Source: a virus. From it: 64,000 nucleotides of DNA. A program made the position numbers and the translations under genes. Positions 15,426-20,332 of this stretch are shown here, in pieces. The notes under the pieces are model-generated. The model saw nothing but the letters and a program-made list of their open reading frames with translations. It had not been told where the DNA came from and ran no database searches. The DNA lies in IMG/VR virus record IMGVR_UViG_3300042402_002641, positions 124,001 to 188,000 of that record. One strand, 5' to 3'. The number at the start of each line of letters is the position of its first letter. Positions within the stretch are counted from its first letter, which is position 1.

Positions 15426-17270
15426 TTAGAGAGCGACAAAGTTCTTGACAGTTATAGTTCCCACCATGCCTAGATGGGATTGACACTGATATCTGTAACC
15501 GCCTGATATGGAAGACGGAATTTTCCAATACAGCGTTCCGCTGGTTTTGGCCTGGGCCGCTGAACCTGTGCTAACTGCGCCAGTAGTGCTCACATGCACT
15601 AGTCCAGTATCGTAGTTTACTCCAGTGCCGTCTTGTATCAAGAATGGGTGACCGGAGGCTCCGGCTAAATTAAATGCAATAGTAGTGCCATTGATAGCGT
15701 ATATAGTAGGATCATCTGCGGTTCCATACTGATCGAATCTATAGGCCGATGTACCATTGGCAGTTACATCCAACATGGTGATGGCTGGAAGATATATTCG
15801 ATCTATGGTCAGGGATGCGGAAACTGCATCTGTAAGGTCATCAAATGCACTAGCACCTCCTGATGCTGTGCTGGTGATGGTGATAGTGTCCGTGCCTGCA
15901 ACTGTGGTTATCGATATGCCGGTGCCAGCTACTAGCGTAAGAGTGTCAGTGGCTGAATCAGCCACAACTGAAGTTTGTCCAGCCACTGCTATGGTGCTAA
16001 AACTATCAGATGAGACGCCGCCGCCAGTTGAATTGATAGTAATAGTGTCTGTACCAGCATCGGTGGTGATGGTAATATTAGTTCCTGCTACCAAGGTCAA
16101 CGTGTCTGTGGCAGAATCTGCCACAACATTCGATTGCCCCGCCACTGCGATTGTAGCAAAACTGTCTGCAGCTGGCGCAGCCCATGTGTTGTCTCCCCTC
16201 AGGAACGTGGTCACATTCCTAGTACCAGCAGTGCCTAGTCTCAGCACCGGAACAGTACCCGAATCTAAATTTGTAGCATTTAGTGCAGTAATATTGGCGC
16301 CACTGCCGCTGAACGATGTGGCAGTGAGTAATCCGACATCTGATATGGTTGCTGAACTGTTTTGTATAATAGTACCTGTAGTGCCATCATAGCGTATGAT
16401 AGCGTTGTCTACATACCCGCCGCCAGCACTAAGTACATCGCCAGTTCCTGCTCCTGATGCGCCGGCTGGTCCTGGGGGTCCTGGGGGTCCTTGTGTGCCG
16501 GTAGAAGAAGTACTTTGTCTAGAACCATCTGCAAAGACTATTTCATTTCCTACTACCACATCCGAATCAAAGGCCACCGTGGGGATGAATGTAATTGCAG
16601 AACTGTCATCGCTGTCTATGACTGTGCCTGCAAAGGTCACTGAGCCTGTGTTTGCTACCGATGAGATTGTGTAAACATCAGCAGTCGAATCATTACTTGA
16701 GATAATAGATATACCCGATCCTTCTACCAGCGTAACAGAATTAGGAACTATGGATTCACTGGCAACTGGCACCCAGGCACTTGCGTGTGCGTAATACAGT
16801 TTCCCTGTGTCATGTGCGTGAGCTATCATCCCATGATAGTCCACCGCAGATACTTCTGAAACTAAATCCGCCAATGTGTCCCAATGAAATCGTATTCGAT
16901 TTTTCTGTCCACTGACTTCAATTATTCCTGTAAGATTTAATGTACTGGTGTTAGCATCCCATGCTAAATTTGTGAGATCGTTGACCTGAGATCCTGCAGC
17001 GGGATAATAGGCTAATCTTCCAGCAACTCCTGCCTGCACTCCCCCACTGAATCCGGCTGCGTTTGCCTTGGCTAAGAAAGCTGCATTAGTAACATTTGCA
17101 AAATCGCTCCTAGCAAGAGCAACACCTCCTTTTGTGATTCCATCAAAAATTCTAAGAGTCTTGGTTTGTTTGTCATAGGCGATATCGCCATTTGACGCAG
17201 TTTGTCGATCAAGATACGCAGTTTCTTTAGGATCTACCCTGAGGGTTTTAAAAAAGTTAGAGTTTGACAT
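15426..17270 (-). CDS. Tail fibre-like protein with collagen-like repeats and C-terminal cupredoxin domain
   Basis: This 614-residue virion protein has several parts. Residues 1-60 resemble phage fibre N-termini (DRQTASNGDIAYDKQTKTLR). A beta-rich shaft follows. A short collagen-like stretch (GPPGPPGPAGASG) lies near 290. Two near-identical repeats each contain VVADSATDTLTLVAGT. The last 100 residues look like a small blue-copper (cupredoxin) domain: His541 (GHPFLI), then Cys596, His599 and Met602 in YQCQSHLGMVGTITV. That is the full set of type 1 copper ligands, with the C-x2-H-x2-M spacing of amicyanin. A CATAAATA late box lies 8 nt before the ATG. Copper binding is inferred from ligands only. 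Confidence 0.85.
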   Translation of the reverse strand: MSNSNFFKTLRVDPKETAYLDRQTASNGDIAYDKQTKTLRIFDGITKGGVALARSDFANVTNAAFLAKANAAGFSGGVQAGVAGRLAYYPAAGSQVNDLTNLAWDANTSTLNLTGIIEVSGQKNRIRFHWDTLADLVSEVSAVDYHGMIAHAHDTGKLYYAHASAWVPVASESIVPNSVTLVEGSGISIISSNDSTADVYTISSVANTGSVTFAGTVIDSDDSSAITFIPTVAFDSDVVVGNEIVFADGSRQSTSSTGTQGPPGPPGPAGASGAGTGDVLSAGGGYVDNAIIRYDGTTGTIIQNSSATISDVGLLTATSFSGSGANITALNATNLDSGTVPVLRLGTAGTRNVTTFLRGDNTWAAPAADSFATIAVAGQSNVVADSATDTLTLVAGTNITITTDAGTDTITINSTGGGVSSDSFSTIAVAGQTSVVADSATDTLTLVAGTGISITTVAGTDTITITSTASGGASAFDDLTDAVSASLTIDRIYLPAITMLDVTANGTSAYRFDQYGTADDPTIYAINGTTIAFNLAGASGHPFLIQDGTGVNYDTGLVHVSTTGAVSTGSAAQAKTSGTLYWKIPSSISGGYRYQCQSHLGMVGTITVKNFVAL

Positions 17271-17968: not shown

Positions 17969-17985
17969 TAATACCGAAAGTATTA
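17969..17985. terminator. Possible weak bidirectional terminator
   Basis: A 6-bp stem (TAATAC / GTATTA) with a CGAAA loop lies between the convergent HAD and 2OG oxygenase genes and overlaps the latter's stop codon. There is no clear T run, so termination is uncertain. Confidence 0.3.
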
Positions 17986-18636
17986 TGGTCTATTAAGAGT
18001 CACATCTAATCCGGTACAGCTTACTTCGTCGGGGTCAAGACTCAACGGCGATGTGTAGAAAGAATTAAACGCCAAACTTTTTCTAATCTTTTCACCCTCA
18101 TTTGGAGTTACCCAATGGTGCAACCAGCTCGGAAATATAACAAGGTCGTATTGTTTAGGAGTTATAAAAATTTGAGGAGTATTGAAAAAATTAATCTCAC
18201 CTCTGTGTTGTATAGTACCCTTTTGACGATTGTCTTCAAGAACTACATCGCCAGTAACACCTTCAGGAATACTTAGATAGAAAGTTCCGCTTAATACGGT
18301 GTTGTAATGATTATGCATATGATGCCCAGTGCCAGGTGGATTAAAATTCACCCAGCTTTGAGTAATTGCTAACGTATTATCATAAACACCGAAAATATCT
18401 TTAGCATATTGATTTAAATGCTGCTCTATGACCTGTGTGAGTTTAGAATTTTTGTATTTTTTAGTCAATACAAGTTTATCCGGAGTCATCCAGTTTCCAG
18501 CTTTGTTAGCAATTAAATCTTTAGAAGAGAAATACTCTTTATTGTATTCCCCGATCATTTCCTCGATTTCGTTAACGTCAATTAACTCTTCTAAGTTTAC
18601 CTGAATGTAGGTAAGTGGAAAAATGTGATTATACAA
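17983..18636 (-). CDS. 2OG-Fe(II) oxygenase
   Basis: This 217-residue protein belongs to the phage-type 2-oxoglutarate/Fe(II) oxygenases, which hydroxylate or otherwise oxidise a substrate while splitting 2OG to succinate. Landmarks are SWVNFNPPGTGHHMHNHYNTVLSGTFYLSIPEG (about residues 115-147, carrying the first metal ligand in H-x-H), then a VIFPSWLHHWVTPNEGEKIRKSLAFN stretch near the end (second metal His and the 2OG-binding Arg). The start codon is TTG at 18636 with AAGGA 5 nt before it; no nearby ATG fits. It follows the carbamoyltransferase stop by one base and is the last gene of the minus operon. Confidence 0.88.
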   Translation of the reverse strand: MYNHIFPLTYIQVNLEELIDVNEIEEMIGEYNKEYFSSKDLIANKAGNWMTPDKLVLTKKYKNSKLTQVIEQHLNQYAKDIFGVYDNTLAITQSWVNFNPPGTGHHMHNHYNTVLSGTFYLSIPEGVTGDVVLEDNRQKGTIQHRGEINFFNTPQIFITPKQYDLVIFPSWLHHWVTPNEGEKIRKSLAFNSFYTSPLSLDPDEVSCTGLDVTLNRP

Positions 18637-18637
18637 G

Positions 18638-20332
18638 TTATTCCTTGGTTAATAGTTTACCAATTTCAGGCAACCACAAATACTTCATGTCTGATCGCTT
18701 TAAGGTATCTAGTGCTTCTACGAGTTTTTCAACTAGTGGATCCCCTGCAAGATTGAAACTGGTATTGAATAAAATTGGAACTCCTTTAATTTTATCAAAT
18801 TCTGAAATCAATTCGTAGTAGTGTTTATTTTGTTCGGCAGTTACTGTTTGAACTCTGCATGTTCCGTCAACGTGTGTAATTGCTGGAATTAAATCTCTCT
18901 TGTTTTCCAACACATCAACTGCGTACATCATAAAAGGTGTCTCGTCTTTTGTTCTTAGATCGAACCATTCGCCGGCTTTTTCTGCAAGACAGGAACCAGC
19001 AAACGGCCTAAACCATTCACGTTTTTTAATAATGTTAACAATATCTTTTCCGTCTTTGACAGTTGGGTCAAATAATATGCTTCTATTTCCCAGTGCTCTA
19101 GGACCAGCTTCACTTCGTCCTTGAAATAACGTGACTATGTTACCTTCAGCAATTAATTTTGCTACATCAGCAGCACTTGTGTCCACTACGGTAAAGCCAC
19201 TGAAATCTGCATTTTCATAATCAGCTGATCTATCGGGACCTAGATATAAACTTGTTAAAGGTGTTTTGGTTGTATTTTCTGATATCAGTCTGTAAATGTA
19301 TTGACAGGCCCCCATAACATTGCCGCCGTCGTGGCTCACTGGTTCGTGATAAAATTCAATGTTTGGAAATTCTTTTAAAAGTTCGTAATTTGCTACACAA
19401 TTAAGCCAATAGCCTCCAGCCATGACAATTTTTTTCATGCCGGTAAGTTCTATGGTTTTTCTTATTAAATCAAATACTCGTTGCTCGGAAGATTTTTGTA
19501 CAGCATAGGCAAGATCTTTTCTATAATCTCCAACTAGTTCAGGATCATCGTGCCAAGATATATTTCCATTAAGTGCTGTTAGTTCGGCATCAAGATCGCA
19601 CCTTACGTGATTTCCCGCTGGAAAATTAGGCTTGATAAAACTTCTATTATTAAATCTACCATCGTGGATTTTTATGTTTGGATTAGGCTTCCCGTAAGGA
19701 GCCAGTCCCATAGTTTTACCTGCCTCAATGGCGTGGAATCCTAAAAATTGTGTAACAGCTTCATAACTTTTTACTATACCGTGCATGTCAGAGATTTCAA
19801 TATCTATACTGTCATTTTCTTTCAATGTAAAACTATCAATTAAATTAGTGCCATAATTTTTATAGTGGCACTGGAATTCTGCAGGATAATTTAGAGTCCA
19901 AATCGACTCGACCTCCCATGTTTGGTGCATGAGTTCTTCACTTAGTCTACACCCGCTGCCTGCACCATCAATGATTAGTCCTGCTGCTTCATCAAATCCG
20001 CTGTTATAAAAAGCAGTGAAAGCATGTGTGAGATGATGATCATCACCTAATTTAATTGTTTCAACCTTTACATTGGGTTGCATTTTCCTAATAAAACAGG
20101 TGTAAGCATCCTCGCCAGTCCACGGAACTTGACCAAATGCGTTTCTTGTACCGCAGATGACAAGATAATCTATATGATCTGTATAATCGTAGGCCAGTAA
20201 CATGCCTGCAAACGGGTTGCCATCATATTTGAGTCTTGATAATCTATCTTCCTCGATATAGAAAATTAATTCGGTATCTTTATACAGAGCCGTAGCACCG
20301 TTGTGTCCAACATTTATACCCAACATCCACAT
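18638..20332 (-). CDS. Carbamoyltransferase (NodU/CmcH/TobZ family)
   Basis: This 564-residue enzyme would transfer a carbamoyl group from carbamoyl phosphate to a hydroxyl, typically on a sugar or natural product. The N-terminal Kae1-like domain shows GINVGHNGATAL and the metal-binding DDHHLTHAFTAFYNSGFDEA, then LIIDGAGSG. The C-terminal domain has the family signature QGRSEAGPRALGNRSIL, then REWFRPFAGSC and LFNTSFNLAGDPLVE. All appear intact and length is normal. It sits four bases after the GT9-like gene in the operon. Carbamoyltransferases are known from some marine T4-like phages; the phage substrate is not known. Confidence 0.95.
   Translation of the reverse strand: MWMLGINVGHNGATALYKDTELIFYIEEDRLSRLKYDGNPFAGMLLAYDYTDHIDYLVICGTRNAFGQVPWTGEDAYTCFIRKMQPNVKVETIKLGDDHHLTHAFTAFYNSGFDEAAGLIIDGAGSGCRLSEELMHQTWEVESIWTLNYPAEFQCHYKNYGTNLIDSFTLKENDSIDIEISDMHGIVKSYEAVTQFLGFHAIEAGKTMGLAPYGKPNPNIKIHDGRFNNRSFIKPNFPAGNHVRCDLDAELTALNGNISWHDDPELVGDYRKDLAYAVQKSSEQRVFDLIRKTIELTGMKKIVMAGGYWLNCVANYELLKEFPNIEFYHEPVSHDGGNVMGACQYIYRLISENTTKTPLTSLYLGPDRSADYENADFSGFTVVDTSAADVAKLIAEGNIVTLFQGRSEAGPRALGNRSILFDPTVKDGKDIVNIIKKREWFRPFAGSCLAEKAGEWFDLRTKDETPFMMYAVDVLENKRDLIPAITHVDGTCRVQTVTAEQNKHYYELISEFDKIKGVPILFNTSFNLAGDPLVEKLVEALDTLKRSDMKYLWLPEIGKLLTKE

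Follow-up and report, generated by a model that had tools for sequence, protein, structure and literature searches.

The C-terminal domain of a 614-residue phage tail protein is best explained as a genuine type 1 copper cupredoxin, a mobile and mostly C-terminal module found on the tail proteins of aquatic phages, where it may act as an outward contact module. We give this reading as a whole, role included, a probability of about 0.42. From the fold, the four-ligand set, its conservation and its spread, all of which were computed, we infer copper binding and the role of the domain. The confidence given to each of the explanations weighed below divides on the role and not on the fold. The gene lies in a 64,000-nucleotide stretch of DNA, hereafter the window, which spans positions 124001-188000 of a virus record 280,019 bases long. 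The following features are all on the minus strand of the window:

15426..17270, minus strand: tail protein gene, 614 aa (open reading frame and translation); its C-terminus carries the predicted cupredoxin domain
16722..17270, minus strand: N-terminal region, residues 1-183, kept in relatives (16-row alignment, 61-66% identity to this protein)
16461..16490, minus strand: collagen-like GPPGPPGPAG, residues 261-270 (from sequence positions)
15876..16163, minus strand: two similar 43-residue repeats, residues 370-412 and 423-465, leading into the cupredoxin domain
15426..15791, minus strand: predicted cupredoxin domain, residues 494-614 and stop codon (AlphaFold2, Foldseek and profile matches)
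15648..15650, minus strand: His541, first putative ligand (GHPF), aligned with the His of amicyanin and plastocyanin; 94% conserved (112 copies)
15483..15485, minus strand: Cys596, putative ligand and sole Cys of the whole protein, aligned; 95% conserved (112 copies)
15474..15476, minus strand: His599, putative ligand, aligned; 95% conserved (112 copies)
15465..15467, minus strand: Met602, putative axial ligand, aligned; 99% conserved (112 copies)

A first-pass annotation of the window had proposed that His541, Cys596, His599 and Met602, with a C-x2-H-x2-M spacing, form a type 1 copper site in a protein that also has a collagen-like segment. All four residues are found at these positions in the translation, the spacing is present as YQCQSHLGMVG, and the collagen-like segment is in the same chain. 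Structure prediction, suggested there as a check, returned a cupredoxin fold, and in profile alignments the four residues coincide with the type 1 copper ligands of amicyanin, plastocyanin and the PetE of cyanophages. The AlphaFold2 model of the domain, built with 42 aligned relatives, has a mean pLDDT of 95.5 and a pTM of 0.88. The model and its PDB fold matches agree on the Greek-key beta-sandwich of cupredoxins. In a Foldseek comparison with the PDB, the best 50 matches listed were all cupredoxins or cupredoxin-fold copper nitrite reductases, and the cupredoxins included AcoP, rusticyanin, amicyanin, plastocyanin and pseudoazurin, with moderate TM-scores (0.43-0.56 by query length). We regard the cupredoxin fold as nearly certain. 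His541 is located just ahead of a strand at 543-547, Cys596 closes the penultimate strand, and His599 and Met602 are in the loop preceding the final strand. This ligand order along the model is the one expected of a cupredoxin, and from topology and alignment we infer that the four ligands would meet in a copper geometry. As far as the modelled topology shows, the fold does not place the four residues apart. The domain had been assigned to the last 100 residues (15426-15720); its C-terminal position holds, but its extent had to be revised to a start some 20 residues earlier, near residue 494-497 (about 15791), since the model already has its first strand at residues 4-12 of the domain.

As a single sequence, the domain scores 17.3 bits against Pfam PF00127 (Copper-bind), below the gathering threshold of 21.2. 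A match below the threshold would suit a chance C-x2-H-x2-M string and a fortuitous His in a beta domain of another kind. Of 35 relatives, 13 match PF00127 at E up to 0.01 (best 3.4e-5), and a profile of 35 diverse phage copies reaches copper nitrite reductase (4.8e-6), amicyanin (1.5e-5) and plastocyanin (1.6e-5); in the amicyanin and plastocyanin alignments the four ligands all coincide. Run on whole cyanophage records, this profile also recovers the PetE plastocyanin that they encode, though weakly (E 0.0024-0.006), and there too the ligands align. A chance motif was discarded as scarcely credible, since the fold search, the profile search and the conservation all point the same way. We also rejected a phage-borne electron-transfer gene such as petE, as the domain belongs to a tail protein and scores 15 bits against the curated cut-off of 87.85 for TIGR02656 (PetE plastocyanin).

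Exactly four columns are invariant in an alignment of 35 copies (25-78% identity to this domain), and these are the four ligands; ligand-less copies had been excluded from that alignment, and a fairer figure comes from 112 copies retained by an 80% identity filter, none of which was dropped for lost ligands. Among the 112 copies, the ligand columns rank 1, 3, 4 and 6 in conservation, and for four columns drawn at random from about 100, the probability that every one ranks among the first six is about 4e-6. With a 90% filter, 140 of 149 copies read as intact. The others are three copies that have lost all four ligands, the first half of a split copy, and five that score as lacking His541 alone, of which those inspected contain HPLNFSS out of register. 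Outside the 149-copy set, partial ligand losses were found in L075 (Cys to Ser, His to Asp), L193 (His to Asn) and L235, and the idea of a strict all-or-none loss was dropped because of them. The tree of the copies is poorly resolved. Seven rows were tagged as ligand-dead, two of which are not dead, as L247 reads C-x2-H-x3-M and L196 is a split copy.

A ligand-less copy is also present in the genome of this virus, beyond the 64-kb window (L255, G000:C1:206602-207024). It belongs to a giant structural protein, the frame of which is reported as 4601 aa, and reads GFSIRT ... YYQGLINPDAFG, with an insertion in addition. Elsewhere, one protein (L246, frame from 5311) carries tandem copies, the first ligand-less and the second intact. 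A copy in a 2539-aa frame of the P-RSM6 record (L264, bases 87730-88026) reads C-x2-H-x2-Q; from its sequence, the axial Met appears to be replaced by Gln, as in stellacyanin-type sites.

The existence of ligand-less copies, one of them in a giant protein of the same genome, would be consistent with a binding or spacer module of cupredoxin fold in which the ligands are a metal-free inherited relic, and the first-pass annotation had offered a structural relic as one option. If they were relics, the ligands should be lost at least as fast as other positions are, yet in this case they are the sole invariant columns of the 35 diverse intact copies and stand near the top of the 112-copy set; ligand-less copies occur elsewhere, and for the present domain we hold a relic to be very unlikely. 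Since some copies retain the fold without the ligands, metal is unnecessary for the fold, and the copies that do have the ligands probably retain them for a reason other than folding. The persistence of ligand-less copies likewise makes a purely structural need for metal doubtful.

The metal held by the site has to be considered as well. Free copper is scarce in the cytoplasm, the compartment in which phage fibres are assembled, and cupredoxins produced there can take up zinc. The site could then hold mainly zinc or another ion in the virion, merely stiffening the domain, and the case for copper is so far one of sequence and fold. Against this, a His-Cys-His-Met set spaced as C-x2-H-x2-M within a cupredoxin fold is canonical for type 1 copper, profile alignment and conservation put these residues at the aligned type 1 positions, and among the four ligands the soft axial Met shows the highest conservation (99%). 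We therefore regard zinc or another ion as unlikely to be the main occupant, and copper binding by the domain, as a prediction, as probable.

The distribution of the domain was then determined in phages and bacteria. Copper-binding domains on phage fibres had been thought unusual in the first-pass annotation, but this domain turned out to be common in aquatic phages. At least 323 isolate phage records carry it (208 with one query, 323 with another), nearly all of them Synechococcus and Prochlorococcus phages, together with one Pelagibacter phage. With this domain as the lone query, 314 viral-contig stretches were matched, and more were obtained from cyanophage copies. The 35-copy profile finds the domain in five of five cyanophages examined; it finds none in T4 or in the four jumbo phages nearest by capsid. 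The carriers are tail-fibre connectors, fibres and a subtilisin-like protease, and the domain is C-terminal in 167 of 241 placed copies. Such a position, and the recurrence on different tail proteins, are as expected of a displayed module. Two adjoining domain-bearing genes (482-aa and 494-aa frames) are present in the relatives L002-L006 at the place where the window has one. The bacterial genomes yielded a single probable cellular lipoprotein copy, as well as two contigs of viral appearance.

Among the neighbours of the gene are those for tail sheath, head-tail adaptor, tail sheath stabiliser, fibres, major head protein and portal. The last 190 residues of the tail protein match phrog_677, annotated in PHROGs as baseplate wedge tail fibre connector (E 1.1e-37), and the second 43-residue repeat falls within this match (residues 421-611). 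The placement of the domain at the end of a phage fibre, as first described, is correct for the C-terminus of the chain and uncertain for the virion, the nearest family being named as a connector of the baseplate wedge. Residues 1-183 are possibly the attachment part of the protein. A Pfam search with this region gave no match, and its AlphaFold2 model is unreliable (pLDDT 45). Five histidines of the region (His129, 146, 151, 153 and 162; 16785-16886), two of them in the HAH of residues 151-153, show no variation across the 16 rows of the alignment with relatives and could possibly form a second metal site. Genes for a 2OG-Fe(II) oxygenase and a Nol-like carbamoyltransferase adjoin the tail gene (17983-20332), and a 2OG-Fe(II) oxygenase gene is likewise near the gp9 gene of S-SSM7. 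At the tail gene, no T4-type late promoter (TATAAATA) was found, other promoter-like matches were at chance level, and a search for a terminator returned none.

The nearest relatives of the major head protein (66-71%) come from jumbo phages that infect Sinorhizobium, Vibrio, Pseudomonas and Pectobacterium, and psbA was sought in the virus without a match. A proteobacterial host is therefore likely. An account restricted to cyanobacteria was disfavoured, given the capsid nearest to jumbo phages, the search for psbA without a match and the pelagiphage copy.

Copper could itself be active, the tail site exchanging electrons with the host surface or being recognised by the host, and so aiding attachment. 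That the full type 1 site has been retained, when the fold can do without its ligands, argues that the metal is useful beyond folding. The adsorption of some cyanophages is reportedly light-dependent (Jia et al. 2010, cited in PMC9229316); this would fit a redox step, as it would many other explanations. The two residues separating His599 from Met602 differ among close relatives, so that there is no sign of a conserved docking patch. Moreover, the hosts range from cyanobacteria to SAR11 and probably proteobacteria, and this breadth makes a single partner unlikely. Iron sites on phage tail fibres have already been proposed as attachment aids (PMC11705849), and an active copper site would be the copper counterpart of that iron Trojan horse idea. 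On balance, an active role of copper in host contact is possible, and we rank it second. The order of roles, from most to least probable, is a metal-stabilised contact face, redox- or copper-guided host contact, another metal, a relic, and chance.

According to the preferred reading, that of a metal-stabilised contact module, copper would be bound in the virion, having been acquired during assembly or after lysis. At one end of the domain, the metal would tie the Cys-His-Met loop to the GHPF loop. The domain would face outward as a contact module, and copper would set the shape and stability of the contact face.

Public annotation gives no metal for the domain. In the literature searched for cupredoxin, copper or plastocyanin together with phage tails, subscription journals lying outside the search, we found the cupredoxin family as such to be known but came upon no account of a phage tail cupredoxin with a full copper site. 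If copper does occupy the site, phage tails would have a second metal beside iron, adsorption could vary with copper or redox state, and aquatic systems would contain virion-borne copper. Tail proteins with the domain are encoded in several hundred sequenced cyanophage records and by many uncultured viruses, and its presence in cultured cyanophages makes the copper question open to direct testing. A broader proposal, which we put forward tentatively and consider rather doubtful in its full extent, is that blue-copper sites are present on the tails of unrelated aquatic phage lineages and that these phages exploit copper or its redox state on meeting the host, virions being an unrecognised pool of bound copper in water.

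HxH iron-binding sites have been proposed on the tail fibres of T4 (gp37) and Alteromonas phage R22Y, in connection with an iron Trojan horse idea for phage tails (PMC11705849). A proposed metal site on a phage tail is what these fibres share with the present protein. They differ in the site itself, which is octahedral iron with HxH motifs in gp37 and R22Y and a predicted cupredoxin copper site in the phage domain. Residues 494-614 contain no HxH motif; the one HAH (151-153) belongs to the N-terminal region.

Among cyanophages, the gp9/gp10-like proteins of phrog_677 share a C-terminal domain with the same four ligands, but the match covers profile positions 221-411 of 412 only, which is less than the whole profile, and these cyanophages differ from this virus in host group and N-terminal region; PHROGs gives no metal for the family. 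The PetE of cyanophages is encoded by a separate small photosynthesis gene and has a signal-like N-terminus, whereas the phage domain is fused to a tail protein. On the cellular side, a related single-domain protein of a Labilibaculum MAG (L269) shares HPF and C-x2-H-x2-M; it has a lipoprotein-like start and lies on a cellular contig, in contrast to the phage tail protein, and judging from its sequence it is possibly the cellular counterpart of the phage module.

Amicyanin and plastocyanin (PF00127), the latter being the blue copper carrier of photosynthesis, share with the phage domain the predicted fold and the four ligands, and the C-x2-H-x2-M spacing is that of amicyanin, so the amicyanin-like label was apt for the loop. 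It does not extend to the first ligand, where amicyanin has His-Asn and this domain and nearly all copies have His-Pro. The loops read YHCTFHPFM in amicyanin and YQCQSHLGMVG in the phage domain. The partner of amicyanin is methylamine dehydrogenase, whose mau genes one would not expect a phage to have. Because the His-Asn feature is absent from its sequence, the domain is not classed as an amicyanin despite its amicyanin-like loop spacing. Amicyanin and plastocyanin are small free electron carriers, whereas the phage domain is part of a tail protein.
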